This document shows, in pieces, positions 8,276 to 17,952 of a DNA stretch of 59,843 nucleotides. The position numbers and the translations under genes were made by a program. Every line of letters starts with the position of its first letter. The stretch's first letter is position 1. The stretch spans positions 1 to 59,843 of the forward strand of contig JAAXXL010000007.1 in assembly GCA_013334485.1 (NCBI GenBank), written 5' to 3'. The DNA comes from Chlorobiaceae bacterium. GTDB lineage: Bacteria > Bacteroidota > Chlorobiia > Chlorobiales > Chlorobiaceae. The notes under the pieces were generated by a model. The model saw only the letters and a list, made by a program, of their open reading frames with translations. It was not told the DNA's origin and searched no databases.

Positions 8276-8308
8276 ATTTCCTGCAATGGGCAGGATAACC
8301 CCGAAACC

Positions 8309-8389
8309 GGTAAGAATAAATACCAGATAAAGCGCTAACTGGTATTTATTCTTACCAGTTTGTTATATTAACCGGTAAGAATAAATACC
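8309..8389 (+). promoter_or_regulatory. Three 16-bp palindrome-like sites upstream of the DUF4143 ATPase
   Basis: GGTAAGAATAAATACC occurs at 8309-8324 and 8374-8389 on the plus strand and at 8341-8356 on the minus strand, all identical over 16 bases. Start-to-start spacing is 32 and 33 bases, about three helical turns. Sites 1 and 2 can also form a perfect 18-bp stem (8309-8326 with 8339-8356) around a 12-base loop. A TATATT at 8364-8369, between sites 2 and 3, could be a -10 box; site 2 would then cover the -35 region and site 3 the transcript start. I infer an operator array for the gene starting at 8402. A transposon-end or replication-type function is the alternative. Confidence 0.6.
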
Positions 8390-8401
8390 GGATAAGCAAT
8401 T

Positions 8402-9712
8402 ATGAAGGAAATACTGAAAGAGATAATCCTCGATTTTCAGGAGCTTGACCTCCCGACTGGCGTACTGCGTAAAGTCGAGATTACCCCTGTTGATGGTAAA
8501 GCTACGGTCTGCATAGGAGTACGCAGAAGCGGAAAATCAACCTTCATGTTCCAGATCATCAAGCGGCTGCTTGTTGCAGGAACACCCCGGCAGAATATCC
8601 TCTATCTGAACTTTTTCGATGACAGGCTGCACAACCTGCAACACGAAACTCTTGGTATCATTACAGAGGTCTATTATTCGCTTTATCCGAATAAAAAAAG
8701 CACGGAAAAAGTGTACTGCTTTTTCGATGAAATACAGGTCATTCCCGGCTGGGAAAAATTCATTGACCGGATGATGCGTACTGAAAAGTGTGAAATCTAC
8801 ATCACCGGTTCTTCCGCACAGATGCTCTCAAGGGAGATAGCAACCCAAATGCGTGGCCGGGCTCTTTCTTGGGAGATGTTCCCTTTTTCATTTCAGGAAT
8901 TCCTTGATTTCAAAGGAATCGAAACCCCGGAATCCCTCTCAACCAAAAACCGCCTGAAGATACAAAAGGCCTTTGAAGAGTATTGGCAAGCAGGAGGCTT
9001 TCCCGAAGTAGCAGGACTCAACCGGATGTTACAGATAAAAACCCATCAGGAGTATTTCAATGCCATGCTGTTCCGTGATCTCATCGAGCGTCACGACATA
9101 GCCCACCCGAAAGCAATCAAGGATCTGGCCCACTGGCTTGCAGACAACACCGCATCACTCTATTCGATCAATAATCTCACCGGATATCTCAAATCGCTGG
9201 GGCACAAGGTGCCGAAAACCGCTGTTGCTGACTATCTGGAGTGGTTTGAGGATGCCTATATTTTTTTTTCGGTACGCATTTTCGATGCTTCGCTGGCTCG
9301 CTCCAACACCAACCCGAAAAAAATCTACTGCATCGATCACGCTCTGGTAACCTCGGTAAGCTCGGGCATTCTTGTCAATTCAGGACACTTGCTGGAAAAC
9401 CTCGTATTTATAGCACTTCGCAGGATCACTCCTGATATCTGGTACTATAAAACAAAGGCCGGACGGGAGGTTGATTTTATCGTCCAGCAGCAGAATCGTT
9501 CCCGCATACTGGTACAGGTCTCTGAGTCGTTGGCTGAATCACAAACCCGTAAACGGGAGATCACCGCACTATCCGAAGCTATGGCCGAACTGAAGCTGAC
9601 GGAAGGGATAATCGTAACTCGAAGGGATGATGAACAGATTCAGGTCAAAGCAGGAACCATCAACGTCGTACCCGCCTGGCGGTTCCTACTGAACCTGTCT
9701 GATAGAGCCTGA
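8402..9712 (+). CDS. AAA family ATPase with DUF4143 domain
   Basis: 436-residue ATPase of the AAA_14/DUF4143 group, a large family of unknown function found sporadically in bacteria and archaea. Walker A is GVRRSGKSTF near residues 39-48 and Walker B is YCFFDEIQ near 113. A sensor-like TGSSAQ segment and the family's FPFSFQEFLDF follow. The C-terminal DUF4143 part holds KTKAGREVDFIV, the conserved acidic core resembling a restriction-type nuclease fold. It sits alone between the authentic mnmE 3' end and a diverged duplicate of it, with three identical 16-bp sites at its promoter. I infer acquisition as a single-gene cassette. Family identity is firm; any defence or toxin-like role is speculative. 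Confidence 0.88.
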   Translation: MKEILKEIILDFQELDLPTGVLRKVEITPVDGKATVCIGVRRSGKSTFMFQIIKRLLVAGTPRQNILYLNFFDDRLHNLQHETLGIITEVYYSLYPNKKSTEKVYCFFDEIQVIPGWEKFIDRMMRTEKCEIYITGSSAQMLSREIATQMRGRALSWEMFPFSFQEFLDFKGIETPESLSTKNRLKIQKAFEEYWQAGGFPEVAGLNRMLQIKTHQEYFNAMLFRDLIERHDIAHPKAIKDLAHWLADNTASLYSINNLTGYLKSLGHKVPKTAVADYLEWFEDAYIFFSVRIFDASLARSNTNPKKIYCIDHALVTSVSSGILVNSGHLLENLVFIALRRITPDIWYYKTKAGREVDFIVQQQNRSRILVQVSESLAESQTRKREITALSEAMAELKLTEGIIVTRRDDEQIQVKAGTINVVPAWRFLLNLSDRA

Positions 9713-9725
9713 ACGGTCTGCATAA

Positions 9726-9863
9726 ATAAACAGCGACGCTGAGACCGAGTTTATAGCCTTTGAATTCCGCTCAGCCCTCGACTACGTCGGAGAGATCACC
9801 GGCACAGTCATCAACGAGGAGATACTGAACACGATCTTTGACATGTTTTGTATAGGCAAATAG
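9726..9863 (+). pseudogene. Partial duplicate of the mnmE 3' end
   Basis: 46 in-frame codons ending in TAG translate to a second MnmE C-terminus, from INSDAETEF to FCIGK. They align without gaps to the last 46 codons of the intact gene (8138-8275). By hand I count about 22 differences in 138 positions, many at third codon positions, so this is a diverged copy from a related mnmE or an old duplication, not a fresh one. A TAA stop immediately precedes it and there is no start codon. It marks the right edge of the ATPase cassette. Confidence 0.9.
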
Positions 9864-10487
9864 ATGATAATACTTGGAAAAAGGATAATGAAGAAAGGAA
9901 TAAGAAACCTCGCCGCAGAGCCATTAAATATTTTTTCAAAAGAGATCAATTCACTCACAAAGTAGGGCTTCGAGAAATTTACCCATATCGATTAATAACG
10001 CCATCGACAACGCATAGACTCAACTTTGTAGCACAATAATCTCATCAGATTAACAACAACAAATACTTTCATTTACCGTAAACCAGTACGCAGCCACCTT
10101 CCTGTATAGCTAGACACAATGAACTTCCGTCTATCTATTTTTCTATTAATAGCAATGAAATTCAAAATCATATTCCTGAAACCTCAAAAATCTATATCAG
10201 AGCAAGGTATAAATACTTAAGTTAGATATTAAATACAACAGTAAAGAGATGGATGAAAAACGTATCACGCCAGCTCGCGCGAATTAAAGCGGGATCAGGG
10301 AAAAGCCTAAGGCATCAGATCGAGATAGATAGGAGTCTCAGACAACCAAGCTAAATTTCGTATTGTTTATCAAAATAGCTTTTTTGACAAACGAAAGACA
10401 AGATGTTAGCATATTATAATTTAATACCCCATCCTTATCCAATCTTGATTTATTGCATAAACCATATCTCACCAGATAATCGTCAAG
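9864..10487. other. AT-rich stretch without a supportable gene
   Basis: 624 bases between the mnmE remnant and the lipoprotein gene. Short open frames exist (for example 34 codons from an ATG at 10253), but none shows a recognisable family or persuasive start. The composition matches the AT-rich operon that follows. I looked for an integrase fragment here and saw none. Confidence 0.5.
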
Positions 10488-11186
10488 TCAAAATGCATCG
10501 GGAAAACCAGAAAGAACGGTATATTTAATTTTAGTATTGGTTGCTTCAATGACATTAATTCTGACTTTTTTAAAGCCAATTATTGAGCTATCGTTAAGAT
10601 CATACAGTAATTCTTGGGTAAATGGCGCTCGCATATTGTTATCCGCAAATTCTCTGTATATAAATTTTAATGTACTACCTGATCTCCCATTATAAACAAG
10701 TTCTTGACTAAAGTTTGGGCTATTAATATCGATAGATTTCCCCATGACAAAGGATGGCTGAGGATCAATTATATGATGTGAATTATACTGACTTTTCAGG
10801 TATGCTTCTAAAACCATTGGATTATCATTTCTAATACTAAAACCTCCAAGTTCCTGTTGCCCTTGTGAACTAAACAAGAGATCAGACAAGTAATATACTC
10901 TCTCTCTATCGCGATAAGCAGCCTTATAAGTGCCAATTGGGTACACTATTAAACCACTTAATAATGACACTCTTGCTGAAGCTTGGCTCTGTAAGATTAT
11001 CGCATCATATTCATATATTTTTCCTTTCTTCACCAGCGTCTCTCCGAGTTCCGAAACATTAACCGCACCAAGTGACGGGATATTAAACACCGTTAACCTT
11101 GGATACATCAGTTCTTTTTGTGTCGAACACCCGGCTAATATCAACATCATTGAGCAAAGTAATGAGATAAATTTAATATTTTTCAT
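10488..11186 (-). CDS. Hypothetical lipoprotein
   Basis: 232 residues from the ATG at 11186, beginning with a classic lipoprotein signal: KNIKF, a hydrophobic core, then the lipobox LAGC. The frame is open to a TTG at 11225, but the signal peptide argues for the internal start. The mature part is rich in short beta-like segments and Tyr (for example YRDRERVYYLSDLLF); no family is recognised. It lies 41 bases downstream of the 201-residue gene and shares its strand and AT-rich composition, so it may be the last gene of the same operon. Cell-envelope location is predicted; function is unknown. Confidence 0.65.
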   Translation of the reverse strand: MKNIKFISLLCSMMLILAGCSTQKELMYPRLTVFNIPSLGAVNVSELGETLVKKGKIYEYDAIILQSQASARVSLLSGLIVYPIGTYKAAYRDRERVYYLSDLLFSSQGQQELGGFSIRNDNPMVLEAYLKSQYNSHHIIDPQPSFVMGKSIDINSPNFSQELVYNGRSGSTLKFIYREFADNNMRAPFTQELLYDLNDSSIIGFKKVRINVIEATNTKIKYTVLSGFPDAF

Positions 11187-11227
11187 TTTTAATATTGACA
11201 CTATATACATAAAATAGCCATACAAGC

Positions 11228-11833
11228 TTAAAGATTCCTATCTATTGACTCATTTACTCTAGTAAAATGAATTGATAGTTTTGTCAGAAACAAATAAAAG
11301 CCATAATTGCTCAAAGAAAAAAGCCGTTGTTTATTTAAATCTGACCTATCAACTGATTCGTTATGGCATGAGTTTATTTTATCAAAAAGCACAATTGAAT
11401 CCCCTAATGTCGGACTAGGACTAGTCAAATAAAATATCTGTGTGATAAGCTGTTTTTTTATTGAAGCCAAAAACGCCTGTATTCTCTCCTCATCAGCCAC
11501 ACGAAATTCCCTTAATTTTGAGATATACTTATCCAAGCTAACTATTGGAGCATAACATAAAGACAAAGCAGCTGGCCTTTGGTTTCTTAAGTCTGAATCG
11601 CATGTATTAGAGATGATCATCCCTCGAGACTTAACGATTTTCGTATCAGGTAGATTAATCAACAACAATCCTTCTAGCCCATCTCCTTGATAAACTATGT
11701 CATCTGACCTAAGAGAATACATGCGCTTATCAATATTATTCGGAAAATCCTTAAGGGATTTCATTAAATCCAACTTAGACTCAGGATTTAGATAAGTTGG
11801 CAAATACCTCTTTATCTCATCAAAATCAATCAT
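11228..11833 (-). CDS. Hypothetical protein in the TIGR04255-type operon
   Basis: 201-residue cytoplasmic protein without signal peptide or membrane segment. The central segment SRGMIISNTCDSDL followed by PIVSLDKYI resembles proteins of unknown function in which a conserved (S/N)-x-(S/T)-C-D motif occurs early; I cannot name the family. Its ATG overlaps the stop of the preceding 104-residue gene in an ATGA, a sign of translational coupling. The Lys/Ile/Asn-rich composition matches its operon partners and differs from the core genes, consistent with horizontal acquisition. The function may be joint with the TIGR04255-like protein, which is an inference from context only. Confidence 0.65.
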   Translation of the reverse strand: MIDFDEIKRYLPTYLNPESKLDLMKSLKDFPNNIDKRMYSLRSDDIVYQGDGLEGLLLINLPDTKIVKSRGMIISNTCDSDLRNQRPAALSLCYAPIVSLDKYISKLREFRVADEERIQAFLASIKKQLITQIFYLTSPSPTLGDSIVLFDKINSCHNESVDRSDLNKQRLFSLSNYGFYLFLTKLSIHFTRVNESIDRNL

Positions 11834-12144
11834 AACAAATCAAACAATTGATCTTGCAAGATTTTTGCGAATTCAGAAGGAATATCAATCGATTCAGATA
11901 GTAACTTACTCGTAAAGTTATGGATAACTATTAAATCATCCATATGCGATCCTCGATCAATAATATTCCTATATTCGCCAAATAAGTTTGCTGCAATAGG
12001 GATACCAAGGGATTCATAACTCGTCTCTACACCTTGTGTACAAAATTGATTACACGAAAGGAGTACAGAGGCAGTAATAACTGTCGGTATAATTTTAATT
12101 CGACCAGTGGTCGTCCCATTGTTAGGCAAATGCAAATTCATCAC
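11830..12144 (-). CDS. Small hypothetical protein, middle gene of the TIGR04255-type operon
   Basis: 104 residues, no family recognised. The N-terminal third (NNGTTTGRIKIIPTVITAS) is beta-like, and the C-terminal half is helical and acidic, ending in EFAKILQDQLFDLL. It starts 8 bases after the TIGR04255-like gene and overlaps the next gene in ATGA, so the three are almost certainly co-translated. Its small size and position between two larger proteins would fit a chaperone, antitoxin or adaptor role, but the sequence does not decide this. Confidence 0.6.
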   Translation of the reverse strand: MMNLHLPNNGTTTGRIKIIPTVITASVLLSCNQFCTQGVETSYESLGIPIAANLFGEYRNIIDRGSHMDDLIVIHNFTSKLLSESIDIPSEFAKILQDQLFDLL

Positions 12145-12152
12145 TACTTAGA

Positions 12153-12881
12153 TTAGTATGTAGGCTCATAATTACTAATAAACTCCTCAGTCAGGAAACC
12201 GAAGAAAACCTCTTTTTCTATAGAATGTTCACTATCAATAATCTCCCTGACCCTTGTTTTTATAAATTCATCATCCATATCCTTATAAACGTCTATATCA
12301 AAAACAGACACTTTTTTAGCGTTTAAATCTGGGGACAATCGGGCATCATTTACAATATTTATATTCACTAAATAATCGCCCCGCATGTAAGTACTCCTAA
12401 TATTATTTTGAATTGCCTCAAACTTATCATCATTAAGAACTAGCTTCAAGTTTAAACCATCATAAATATTAGTTTCAAATACATTTATATACCTAACACC
12501 TATTCTCAAGCACTTTTCAACAAGACCAGAATTCTCGATGAGATCTAAAAATTCGTCTATTTTTTTCGTGTAACTATTCCACCCCAAATACTTATCCACA
12601 CTGTTAATAGAAATAACACTAGATCCGATCTGGATCAGGAAATTCTCAGAAACAAGATGATAGTGTGGTTGATATTTCAAACTTTCTTCTTGCTCTCGTA
12701 TATTAATTGGCAAATTTAAAATAGGTAGCTGTTTAATTTCAGGATATTGATCTTTAAATTGATTATAAAGTGTCCCAAAAATAGCAGCAGAAGGCAATCC
12801 AGAAACAAACCTAATCTCAATAATTGCTTCCGCTATCGGTGTTATATTGAGTTGCTTAGGGTATATTATATTCCGCTTCAT
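12153..12881 (-). CDS. TIGR04255 family-like protein
   Basis: 242 residues with the features I associate with the sporadically distributed TIGR04255 family. These are an N-terminal PIAEAIIEIRF strand, a mid-protein GSSVISINSVDKYLGWNSY segment (a beta strand followed by Y-x-G-W), and RIGVRYINVFE, the R-x-G-x-R-Y-I-N block. The C-terminus holds a VFDIDVY strand and a long acidic helix. No signal peptide. It is the first gene of a tightly packed minus-strand operon. The family has no established function that I know of; its patchy occurrence beside unknown partners in AT-rich accessory DNA suggests a defence or mobile-element role. The assignment is from motif memory and is moderately confident. 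Confidence 0.7.
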   Translation of the reverse strand: MKRNIIYPKQLNITPIAEAIIEIRFVSGLPSAAIFGTLYNQFKDQYPEIKQLPILNLPINIREQEESLKYQPHYHLVSENFLIQIGSSVISINSVDKYLGWNSYTKKIDEFLDLIENSGLVEKCLRIGVRYINVFETNIYDGLNLKLVLNDDKFEAIQNNIRSTYMRGDYLVNINIVNDARLSPDLNAKKVSVFDIDVYKDMDDEFIKTRVREIIDSEHSIEKEVFFGFLTEEFISNYEPTY

Positions 12882-13184
12882 TACATTAAATATTTCAAAT
12901 AAATCAAATACTTATTTTTCACAACAAAAACAACAATAAAACTAGCGATATCTATACTCATTCCTTGTTTGCTAACAAATTGAATTCAATGCTTAAGCGC
13001 CGTCAACACATCAGCAAAAACCGTAGTATAGTTTTAGAGAGCGACTAACCACCTAAGCAAGCCTTGCATGCACGCCCTTGCTTTCAATTTAAGTATTTTT
13101 TTGATATATCTTAAAAACCTCCGAACATCCTACCATTTCCTATTTTTGCTATCAGTAGCGATGTATCCTTCATATCCTGTAGGG
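12882..13184. other. Intergenic region upstream of the TIGR04255-type operon
   Basis: About 300 AT-rich bases with no supportable gene. Read on the minus strand, TTGTTA followed by a 16-base spacer and TATAGA (around 12950-12980) could be a sigma-70-type promoter for the operon ending at 10488. This is a weak call. Confidence 0.3.
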
Positions 13185-13432
13185 CTATGTAGATGCTCGA
13201 CATTGGACAACATCAAATACTGCAAGTATTATAAAAAAGTAGCAAGCCTCGAAATCCTTTATCCAATACTTTTTATCTCGACTCGCCATGCCTCAGGGCA
13301 CTGGCAAATCCTGCTCATTGATGCTTCAAATTCATCAAGAAAATCAGCACCAAGACCGGAGCTTTGACTATCATAATATCTAACTGCTCCGCTCAAATCC
13401 TCGACAGCGAGCGAAATGATGCGATAGTTCAT
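13185..13432 (-). pseudogene. Frameshifted RelE/ParE-family toxin
   Basis: The ATG at 13432 overlaps the antitoxin stop (ATGA). The first 50 or so codons read as a ParE-type toxin: MNYRIISLAVEDLSGAV, then RYYDSQSSGLGADFLDEF and a helix ending in CPEAW. The frame then stops at 13259, before the Arg-rich strand and C-terminal strands these toxins need. In another frame the downstream DNA encodes an ILAVFDVVQ-like strand up to a stop at 13185, as expected after an indel. I infer a dead toxin; the intact family length is about 95-100 residues. Confidence 0.65.
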
Positions 13433-13620
13433 CCCAAACCTTTCCGCAGGGAATCAACGACTGATTTTCCGTCAAACGCTTCAATTTCACCGCTGAGAAA
13501 CAAACCAAGGCGCCGTTCCGCTTGGTCAGCGCAAGCCTTCATGACCCTGTCATCGTCACCCCCGAGCGTCTGCAAAAAATGGTCAGCAAGCAGAGCCCTT
13601 TCCTGGAGGGTAAGTTTCAA
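13429..13620 (-). CDS. Putative addiction module component (antitoxin)
   Basis: 63 residues, resembling the short helical antitoxins paired with ParE/RelE toxins (TIGR02574-like). LTLQERALLADHFLQTL at the start and an acidic middle lead to AWxR-type residues replaced here by QAERRLGLFLSGEIEAFDG. The gene overlaps the toxin remnant by four bases. With the toxin frameshifted, it is probably a relic or a stand-alone antitoxin. It lies at the right side of the AT-rich accessory region. Confidence 0.65.
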   Translation of the reverse strand: MKLTLQERALLADHFLQTLGGDDDRVMKACADQAERRLGLFLSGEIEAFDGKSVVDSLRKGLG

Positions 13621-14387: not shown

Positions 14388-17072
14388 TCAGGGAGCCACC
14401 TCGCTGGCGGGAACCTCTGCCGGAGGCGGGGGGGGAGGAACAACAATAGTCATATTGACATCAAAAAGAAAATCATCCTTGATCGTGATGTCAACAGGAA
14501 GTGGCTTAAGAATTGGACGACCACCAACTGAGACCGGAGTAATCCTGTATGATCCGCTGCGCAGGGTATCAGCACGAAAATAACCAAACTCATTGGTAAA
14601 GCTCTTGACTGAGGTCTTGCCTTCCTTTCCGGAGACTTCGAGCAGGACATTGGCAACACCGTTACCTGATGCGTCAGCCACAAATCCCGCAACACCGAAC
14701 TCGGCATAAACCGGAATGGTGAGCGCCGTCACCGCGCCGCTTTTAACCTCAACTTTACGCTCCTTCTGATCAACAGCCAGCTCAATAGGCAGTTTTTCGG
14801 GATCAACTGCAACATTATAGATTCCGGGCTTCAGGCTTCCGATAAAAAACGATCCATCAATCTGCTGTTGCTGCATCTGACGACCATTGAGCAGAATACT
14901 GATATTATTGATGTCTGCAGATGAGAGCTTTGTTTCATTTCCTATATCAAGGGAGCCGGCAATAGCGCCTCTGGTAAGAGTAACTGCATTGCGATTGATG
15001 GGAAAGAGGCCCCGATTCGACCATCCAAGATCCCATGAAATAGCGAGTGCAATATTTTTCTGTGTCTCAGGGATAATAACGTTGGCATTCACATCGCCCA
15101 TCGTAATATTGGTAACGGTCTTCATCTGATAGGCATACTGAAGGGCAACCCTGAGTCCGGTATTGATATAACGCGTCCATGACCCGGCAACACCAAATGA
15201 GGAGGCCGAACGGGAGATAGCCGTCTCAATCAGGTCATTGGTATTGTTTTTTGGATACCAGTTAAGCACCAGATTGGTGACATTTGTTTTATAGATCCGG
15301 TGATAATCATTTAACAGGCGAACATTGAAGTGATCACTAAAATTGCGCTGATAGTCAACTGAAATAATATCATTTTGATAGATAGAGCGCAGGGTATTGT
15401 AATCACCTATCCGGAGGCCGGCCTCATAACGGTAGTTCTCAAAATCATCCGGAGTCGCACTGAGTGTAAGCCGGGAAAAAGGGTAGAGGCTGACTGCGGG
15501 CAAAACATAATGGGCAGGCCAGCGATCCCCCAGTTTTTCATAGTGCGCAATAATCTGCACCCCTAATTGCCGGAAGGGAGATGCTCCCCATCGGAACAGA
15601 TGGTTGATATCTTTTTCCTGAAAATCATAGGCAAAATGGTCCTGACGAAAGGTTCCCCAGTATGCCGCGCTCCACGTTGTGTAATGACCTTCAACCCTTA
15701 TATCGGCAGCACTGCGTTCATTTGATCTGGCCCCGTAAAGTGCGGCATTCCAGTTTGCTCCGGGAGAGAATATTGTGCCAACGAGCAGGTCTGATGATTG
15801 TGCTAACGGGTTCAACTGCATTGCTGCTTCAAGGGTGACTCTGCTGTGCAGGCCATAAAGCACATTGCCGAAAGCAGCGTCAGAATTGTTAGCCCGCTCC
15901 TGCTGGTTCAGGAGATTACCGGTTTTTCCGAGTCCGCCGCGAATAAGCAGCTCGCCCTGAGGCAGTGCCCTTCCCGCAACTGACTGGCTGAAGTCGATTA
16001 CCTTCACTGGTTTTTCATTGACGGAACGAAGGTAGATATAGACCTCTGTTTTACGAAGGTCTGTAGACATCCTGACGTTCTCGAAATAGAACTTTCCATC
16101 CAGACCAATGCGCTGACGTTGAAATACCTCACCGTCAAAACGCAGTTCAGCGATACTTGCAGGGGGGCCGTTGCCTTCAATAGTCCTTAACTGGCTGGCA
16201 TCAATGTTCAGAAAAAGTTCACTTGCATTATCCTGCCCGGCATCAAGCTGTCGCATAATCGAATGGTTATTCCAGCCTATCTGCACCCCGGTCATGTTTG
16301 TAGAACCGATCAGCGAATAACTTCCTGAATACCCTGTACCGAAACGAAGCGCAAGTTTATTGTTGAAAGTTGTCCAATGGTAGCGTGAAGGGGTAAATGC
16401 TGATCCGCTTTCGGTCGCGGCAGTAATATTCCAGACGCCGCCCAACAACCGTCCTCCACTTGCGAGCTGCAGATTACGATTGAAATCAGAGTTGAAGTCG
16501 TAGTCGGCTGATGCTTCAATGCCGATAAATGAAATTGAGCGATCCGGAGCAAGGATATCCGCTGTTCTGGCACCCATTTTTTTTGGGGAACCGGCACTCC
16601 ATGGAATAGTGAGCATAACAGCAAAAAGTTGCTGGTTAAACTCGGGGGAGGCAAGAAAAGTAGTTTTAAGATCTGTAAACGAAATACAGGGAACCGCATC
16701 AAACTCTTTAAGCCTGGCAGTATTGAAACTGATGACACCGATATTCGTCGGATAAAATGCCGTAGCGCCTGCCCGGCGCTCCTCTTTTAATCCTGTTTTT
16801 TCCAGAAACAGTGACAACGGAATCCAGTACTCCTTGTTTTCAAGAAAAACGGTATCCTCTTTTTCAAGGCGGTTATTAATGTAAATACCGACCAGCAGTC
16901 GCTCCATACCTGAAGAAACTTTCTCATTTAATGGAGCTGCCTGAACGGAAGGAGAGGGTGTTTTAACAGGGTTCGGAGCGGGCAAAGAGCCTGCTTCTTC
17001 CGCAACTGCCACAGAGGAAGAGAAGAGCGCAAAAAGTGCGATATGGAGAACAAAAACAAAATAACGCAGCAT
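14388..17072 (-). CDS. Outer-membrane usher-like protein of a chaperone-usher system
   Basis: 894 residues with a signal peptide (1-24). An N-terminal periplasmic segment is followed by a long region of alternating beta strands typical of a fimbrial usher barrel; the plug-like part includes ASIAELRFDGEVFQRQRIG. A C-terminal carboxypeptidase-regulatory-like domain spans roughly residues 790-870 (VAGFVADASGNGVANV, NEFGYFRADTLRSGSYRI). The extreme C-terminus is a Pro-rich tail. The closest style I know is the CS1/alpha-type or archaic usher rather than FimD/PapC. The chaperone gene and two small exported proteins precede it on the same strand, supporting the usher call. Confidence 0.78.
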   Translation of the reverse strand: MLRYFVFVLHIALFALFSSSVAVAEEAGSLPAPNPVKTPSPSVQAAPLNEKVSSGMERLLVGIYINNRLEKEDTVFLENKEYWIPLSLFLEKTGLKEERRAGATAFYPTNIGVISFNTARLKEFDAVPCISFTDLKTTFLASPEFNQQLFAVMLTIPWSAGSPKKMGARTADILAPDRSISFIGIEASADYDFNSDFNRNLQLASGGRLLGGVWNITAATESGSAFTPSRYHWTTFNNKLALRFGTGYSGSYSLIGSTNMTGVQIGWNNHSIMRQLDAGQDNASELFLNIDASQLRTIEGNGPPASIAELRFDGEVFQRQRIGLDGKFYFENVRMSTDLRKTEVYIYLRSVNEKPVKVIDFSQSVAGRALPQGELLIRGGLGKTGNLLNQQERANNSDAAFGNVLYGLHSRVTLEAAMQLNPLAQSSDLLVGTIFSPGANWNAALYGARSNERSAADIRVEGHYTTWSAAYWGTFRQDHFAYDFQEKDINHLFRWGASPFRQLGVQIIAHYEKLGDRWPAHYVLPAVSLYPFSRLTLSATPDDFENYRYEAGLRIGDYNTLRSIYQNDIISVDYQRNFSDHFNVRLLNDYHRIYKTNVTNLVLNWYPKNNTNDLIETAISRSASSFGVAGSWTRYINTGLRVALQYAYQMKTVTNITMGDVNANVIIPETQKNIALAISWDLGWSNRGLFPINRNAVTLTRGAIAGSLDIGNETKLSSADINNISILLNGRQMQQQQIDGSFFIGSLKPGIYNVAVDPEKLPIELAVDQKERKVEVKSGAVTALTIPVYAEFGVAGFVADASGNGVANVLLEVSGKEGKTSVKSFTNEFGYFRADTLRSGSYRITPVSVGGRPILKPLPVDITIKDDFLFDVNMTIVVPPPPPPAEVPASEVAP

Positions 17073-17127
17073 AAACCTGAAAAAGAGAAGATAAACGCCT
17101 TATAGGCTCTTCGAATTACAGTTTAAA

Positions 17128-17952
17128 CTACTGTAAAATCTTTTCAATCTTTTTACCATCAATAGTACCGCTAACCGTTACAATATAACTGATACTCTTG
17201 TCAGGTGGATCAAACTTGGTAGTAATGGTCCGCCTCTGGCCAGCAAGTATCGGGGTATTGTTCATACTGCCGGATCCGATAAACCACTCCGGTCTCTTTT
17301 TATCACGAGGCCAGTTCATATAGCTTCCTATGGACTTGAAACCGGGAAACCCATCTTTTTTCCATAGTGCATACTCACCTTTCAGTCGGGTATGCACATT
17401 TCCACTGTTCTGAATATCCACTTTCAGGGTGCCTGCCGCCTTGTCAAGCGTAACGCCTTGCAGGAGAGTAGAGCGCTGAACCTTTTCGGCATATCCATAA
17501 ACTCCTACACCGATCTTGAAAAGTATCTCCACACCTCCGGGGTTTGTAGGAGAGGGTTGTTCTGTAAAATAGATAACCGCGCGATGCTCACCCGGATTTG
17601 GGAGCGTACGGGGACGAATGGAGAATCTGATTACCTGCTCATTACCGGGATCAATAGTAAAGCTCACCGGATTGATCACCATCCACTGGTCAAGCGACTG
17701 AGAATCAGGCGGTATGATCTTCAGTTTATTCTGTTCATCAAGAGTCCAGTTGTATACATCCACCTTGAGTATTACCGGATTTTTCTTCAGATTCTTGATC
17801 CGTATGGACTCATTGACAGGTTTTGAGCCGATGCTCAGCTCAAACATGGCTGGAGAGACCGCAACCTGCCCAGGCGGATCTTCCGCACAAAGCGGCCTCC
17901 ATGAAACAAAAGAGAGCAGCAGAAAAAACGTGAGCGTTACAATGCGTTTCAT
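17128..17952 (-). CDS. PapD-like periplasmic pilus chaperone
   Basis: 274 residues with a signal peptide (1-23, ending CAED). An N-terminal immunoglobulin-like domain shows the chaperone pattern: VSPAMFELSIGSK, SIRIKNLKKNPVILKVDVYNW, a PGNEQVIRFSIRP strand, then GEHRAVIYFTEQP. In classical chaperones the last block precedes the subunit-binding G1 strand. A second beta domain follows to the end. Its ATG overlaps the stop of the upstream subunit gene (ATGA at 17949-17952) and the usher follows 55 bases later. It should stabilise the two exported proteins encoded upstream and deliver them to the usher. Confidence 0.8.
   Translation of the reverse strand: MKRIVTLTFFLLLSFVSWRPLCAEDPPGQVAVSPAMFELSIGSKPVNESIRIKNLKKNPVILKVDVYNWTLDEQNKLKIIPPDSQSLDQWMVINPVSFTIDPGNEQVIRFSIRPRTLPNPGEHRAVIYFTEQPSPTNPGGVEILFKIGVGVYGYAEKVQRSTLLQGVTLDKAAGTLKVDIQNSGNVHTRLKGEYALWKKDGFPGFKSIGSYMNWPRDKKRPEWFIGSGSMNNTPILAGQRRTITTKFDPPDKSISYIVTVSGTIDGKKIEKILQ

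Follow-up and report, generated by a model that had tools for sequence, protein, structure and literature searches.

The genes P1, P2, and P3 (Table 1), found within the analyzed window (i.e., a 59,843-nucleotide stretch of the Chlorobiaceae contig JAAXXL010000007.1), constitute a conserved three-gene unit that is mobile and carried by phages, and the module structure of this unit is well supported. The reading that we prefer, with a probability of roughly 0.7, is that of a three-part toxin-antitoxin (TA) module, in which P1, a TIGR04255-family protein, guards the antitoxin as in the TAC systems, where SecB-like chaperones protect the antitoxin (PMC5105189). We infer that P3 is the toxin and P2 the antitoxin of this module.

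Table 1. Location of the module, its neighbor, and the surrounding insertion within the window.
Feature	Position	Strand	Basis and remarks
P1, TIGR04255-family protein, 242 aa	12153..12881	-	NCBIfam TIGR04255, phrog_5464; constant gene that opens the module; putative chaperone of the antitoxin and/or sensor
P2, 104 aa, proposed antitoxin	11830..12144	-	relatives with the same position and a conserved tail; purifying selection; family tracks the family of the third gene
P3, 201 aa, phrog_4575, proposed MazF/PemK-fold toxin	11228..11833	-	phrog profile, AF2 model, Foldseek
P4, lipoprotein, lipobox LAGC, phrog_1353	10488..11186 (alternative start 11225)	-	neighbor of the module, not a member
Whole insertion, from mnmE to the parE remains	8276..13280		missing in the two nearest relatives; homology to L098 resumes at 13281
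Second copy of the mnmE 3' end	9726..9865	+	last 140 bases of mnmE, 85%; repeat search; tblastn 77% identity

The four minus-strand open reading frames reported in the preliminary description were all recovered, together with their tight packing, i.e., an 8-base gap between P1 and P2, a 4-base overlap between P2 and P3, and 41 bases between P3 and P4 if the latter starts with the ATG at 11186. Their odd, AT-rich composition was reproduced as well, with a G+C content of 32–35% across 10–13 kb and of 45–54% in the flanks. None of the four proteins matched a Pfam family, and no solved structures were found by sequence for P1, P2, or P3. The PADLOC 2.0 models gave no match for P1–P4, nor for the copy of the trio from Escherichia coli, and a known defence system was rejected on the lack of such a match for the core proteins. 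In a promoter scan, sites were no commoner than in shuffled sequences. P1 matched NCBIfam TIGR04255 over residues 14–235 (2.6e-38; 132 bits, with a curated cut-off of 30), and the resemblance to this family described earlier turned out to be full-length membership; the NCBIfam record gives no function and does not include the operon architecture. A match to phrog_5464 was also obtained for P1. The second and third genes had been considered familyless, which holds for Pfam but not for P3, a protein of phrog_4575 (1.6e-41). The phrogs of P1 (phrog_5464), P3 (phrog_4575), and P4 (phrog_1353) are listed as being of unknown function, and these entries do not connect phrog_5464 with phrog_4575.

Relatives of P3, searched for in annotated phages, IMG/VR, and GTDB genomes, were found in Pseudomonas phages VW-6S and Dobby, two MAGs, and about 20 prophage contigs. 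At every one of these loci, the P3 gene follows directly on a TIGR04255 gene with only a small gene of about 100 codons between the two, and neighboring genes overlap or are a few bases apart; the co-occurrence of the 242-, 104-, and 201-residue proteins, suggested earlier as a check, is thus seen in the same order in each case. The small gene is usually recognized by the profile of the P2 family, the C-terminal tail being the conserved part, and the 104-aa family shows purifying selection (dN/dS 0.13–0.27); the small frames, which keep their position and order among relatives, are conserved as proteins. Moreover, the trio is present in 92 of 5,426 E. coli genomes as a close set (at least 99% identical), annotated in RefSeq as a "TIGR04255 family protein" and two hypothetical proteins; an E. 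coli prophage copy of the trio is located at 3763763–3765490 of NZ_CP028578. The one E. coli copy that was examined is localized in a lambdoid prophage, between the antiterminator Q and holin genes and on the strand opposite to the late genes, and the trio of Dobby is placed between the integrase and portal genes. Both intervals are typical places of phage accessory genes.

In the three phyla that were sampled, TIGR04255 genes were identified in 15 of 296, 30 of 398, and 22 of 247 genomes, i.e., in 5–9% of the genomes in each. Among 73 such loci from the three phyla, 71 had a tightly spaced second gene on the same strand and 68 a third one, the commonest spacing being −4 bases; as each gene was called as the longest frame close to the stop codon before it, and the gene-order count has no calibration with random genes, the weight rests on the gene families. 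The third genes represented PemK/MazF (four), HEPN (three by Pfam, four by PADLOC), PIN (two), HicA (two), DUF7689 (four), and several unknown families, and most of the middle proteins matched no Pfam family. The family of the middle gene corresponds nearly one-to-one with that of the third gene, with an AMI of 0.907 (best of 1,000 shuffles, 0.226), a statistic that is inflated by related loci. Among the longest open reading frames upstream of P1, no family occurred more than twice, and no such toxin was seen among the 25 families listed of 100. When the toxin class was mapped on a tree built from 58 P1 proteins, 16 changes were required (minimum, nine; mean after shuffling, 34.8); hence P1 and its pair stay together over the tree, although the pair was replaced several times. 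The PIN and PemK clades are sisters and lie beside the P3 class. It should be stressed that TIGR04255 genes do occur without the P2 and P3 partners, a finding that the preliminary description had named as speaking against the system; yet the system stands, because the same three-gene layout is found at those loci with other cognate pairs.

The largest class of the TIGR04255 operons (22 loci, e.g., L022, L048, L136, and L137) combines a middle protein with a "WDGYGA" motif and a third protein of 130–180 aa with an "NPAH" motif, without Pfam matches, and this pair is a candidate for a new toxin-antitoxin family. In the TIGR04255 operons of loci L130, L132, L133, and L140, DUF7689 proteins are encoded in the toxin slot, a position suggesting that DUF7689 is a toxin. 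At loci L041, L044, L049, L051, and L066, third proteins of about 200–280 aa with the signature "GW.QG ... C.L" accompany a middle protein with a helix-turn-helix (HTH), and they may be distant kin of P3; joining P3 and the 270-aa third genes into one sequence family obtained no hhalign support. A search of openly accessible, published papers found no mention of TIGR04255 or DUF7689.

In three genomes of the window's own genus, a true PemK takes the place of P3 in the TIGR04255 operon, and therefore a MazF fold was expected for P3 before any model was available. This forecast was then matched by the AF2 model of P3 (pLDDT 79.7), for which the best 50 matches listed by Foldseek against the PDB were all MazF, MoxT, or Kid proteins (best E 5.9e-05, probability 1.00), with TM-scores by target of 0.63–0.73 in the first 45, all of the MazF type. 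At the level of sequence, PF02452 was not matched, and hhalign against MazF reached a probability of 18–20%; this weak profile alignment is in the right register, with QGD aligned to RGD and the LSN strand to the LVVS strand. The invariant residues of P3 (Q49, G50, D51, S75, N76, C78, D79, N84, R86, and Q128), which include those of its signatures QGD and SN-x-CD, differ from the catalytic Arg/Thr pair of MazF, and this pair was not evident in an alignment made by eye. P3 is thus predicted to be MazF-like in fold without being a member of PF02452.

The AF2 model of P1 (pLDDT 86) best resembles the TATA-binding protein (TBP) and related two-repeat folds, with weak TM-scores of 0.33–0.41, and no SecB-like fold was seen among the best 50 structure matches listed. 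In 75 non-redundant relatives, one Tyr (97%) and one Phe (93%) are nearly invariant and polar positions reach at most 82%. An enzyme was rejected, as near-invariance is confined to structural and aromatic positions and a catalytic site is unlikely; because no polar position is invariant, a binding role appears likelier from the conservation pattern than an enzymatic one. In a rival reading, P1, the first gene of the operon, would be a DNA-binding autoregulator instead of a chaperone, sitting with P2 on the operon promoter as a TBP-like saddle, and P2 and P3 would be a plain two-part TA pair. Many TA modules are autoregulated, and most P2 classes have no DNA-binding domain, which P1 could supply; however, one class of middle genes has its own HTH and P1 is still present there, and the TM-score of the TBP-like match is low. 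We consider this explanation unlikely.

P2 matched no antitoxin family. It has a hydrophobic N-terminal segment (about residues 16–30) and a conserved C-terminal tail (EF..iL....DLL). With regard to P2 being perhaps a lipoprotein or a protein of the membrane, its cysteine is not common to the relatives. A hydrophobic segment at residues 12–30 occurs in nearly all P2 proteins of the window's class, and, together with the accessory positions of the trio in prophages, it would fit a three-subunit defence effector without TA logic, in which P1 senses the phage, P3 is an effector activated directly, and P2 serves as an adaptor or membrane anchor. However, the P2 proteins of other classes have no such segment, the P2 families track the toxin families as antitoxins do, and classic TA toxins occupy the third slot of the sister operons. 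We consider the effector unlikely.

The insertion of about 5 kb that carries the trio is absent from the two nearest relatives (L097 and L098; mnmE 90% identical), in which the flanking genes directly follow mnmE. The mnmE-type insertion mentioned in the preliminary description was confirmed; the last 140 bases of mnmE are duplicated, and this copy is likely an attachment-site duplicate inside the insertion. No integrase was noticed within the insertion of the window. Among other members of the genus, the mnmE 3' end is followed by a DNA methylase in L121 and by an integrase fragment in L101, and in L109 a complete tyrosine integrase lies directly behind mnmE, so that this 3' end appears to be a hotspot of integration throughout the genus. 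Between the two copies of the mnmE 3' end, an AAA_14/DUF4143 ATPase is encoded (8402–9712), which matches the PADLOC candidate PDC-S01 (1.9e-113) and has relatives on human-gut phage contigs. Just behind mnmE (8304–8395), there are three copies of a 25–26-base sequence, two direct and one inverted, with alternative hairpins possible. At 13259–13620, a ParD-like antitoxin gene is accompanied by a ParE gene cut at about codon 50 by the right edge of the insertion, and the L098 copy is intact; the insertion removed the 3' half of parE, and the "TA relic" noted earlier is thereby explained. Further on (14388–17952), a large protein with a CarboxypepD_reg domain, either secreted or located in the outer membrane, adjoins a PapD-like chaperone, possibly as a chaperone-usher cluster.

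The fourth gene was rightly described as a lipoprotein gene (phrog_1353, 1.3e-32). Relatives of P4 were found in Fels-2 and in Klebsiella and Acinetobacter phages, the P2-like and Acinetobacter phage copies being without the trio, and a P4 homologue is absent from every other trio locus. P4 is a separate phage gene and not a member of the module, and the four-gene operon is rejected; from the undescribed four-gene system proposed earlier, there remains a conserved, apparently undescribed, mobile, and phage-borne system of three genes. These P4-like lipoproteins (e.g., locus L006, 3953–4684, of Fels-2, and L007), which are encoded also in 47 E. coli genomes, are perhaps superinfection-exclusion lipoproteins. 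A chance gathering of unrelated AT-rich foreign genes on a genomic island, which the mnmE repeat and the unrelated P4 could suggest, is true for P4 and refuted for P1–P3 by the identical gene order at all independent P3 loci.

Like TAC (Mycobacterium tuberculosis HigBA-SecB and CmdTAC), the TIGR04255 operons consist of three genes and combine a constant component with several TA families, including HicA, and the pair is of type II, as judged from the PemK, PIN, HicA, and HEPN third genes of the family and, for the window locus, from the predicted fold. In contrast to TAC, the constant component is a TIGR04255 protein of 240–290 aa, which is first in the operon and shows no match to SecB in sequence or fold, and its pairs belong mostly to other families (PemK, HEPN, PIN, and unknown ones). 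With regard to the chaperone-addiction extension of TAC antitoxins, the feature observed in the window's class of P2 is the hydrophobic N-terminal segment, a putative site of binding. MazEF/PemIK systems are resembled in the predicted MazF/Kid fold of P3 and in the true PemK of the same-genus sister operons; P3 departs from them in its helical extension at the N-terminus, a pair of inserted helices, and the QGD/SN-x-CD signature, it gives no PF02452 match, and the module invariably includes a third gene.

TAC systems combine one constant protein with exchangeable TA pairs, and as the TIGR04255 operons share this layout, we propose a TAC-like job for TIGR04255, carried out by a protein of a different, possibly TBP-like, fold. 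In the three-part TA module, P3 would be a MazF-fold toxin, probably an RNase shutting down translation, and P2 its labile antitoxin. P1 would hold or protect P2, possibly by covering its hydrophobic N-terminal segment, and so, like the SecB-like chaperone of TAC, would control whether P3 is free. The simplest trigger would be phage infection, in which a phage protein draws P1 off P2; the degradation of P2 deprived of P1 would then leave P3 to arrest growth. Activity against phage is known for some TAC systems (PMC5105189, PMC11618068), and in CmdTAC the SecB-like chaperone is titrated by a phage capsid protein (PMC11618068). Anti-phage action appears the likeliest, although putative, use of the module. 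It can tentatively be speculated, with rather less than even odds, that TIGR04255, without kinship to SecB, serves as a general hub for sensing infection, on which at least ten kinds of TA pairs, including undescribed toxins such as the "NPAH" group with its "WDGYGA" antitoxin, are docked, and by which prophages and bacteria abort rival phages.

The P1-P2-P3 trio apparently represents an undescribed, widespread, modular, three-gene TA-like system, and it offers the first testable role for TIGR04255, a family without a function. Position within these operons alone predicts the toxin or antitoxin identity of several unannotated protein families, and a combinatorial TA network missing from the current defence catalogues (PADLOC) is added. 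The results suggest that TIGR04255 represents a novel type of controller, acting on switches for bacterial suicide or against phages, and that the control principle of TAC, i.e., a dedicated third protein guarding the antitoxin, may have arisen more than once.
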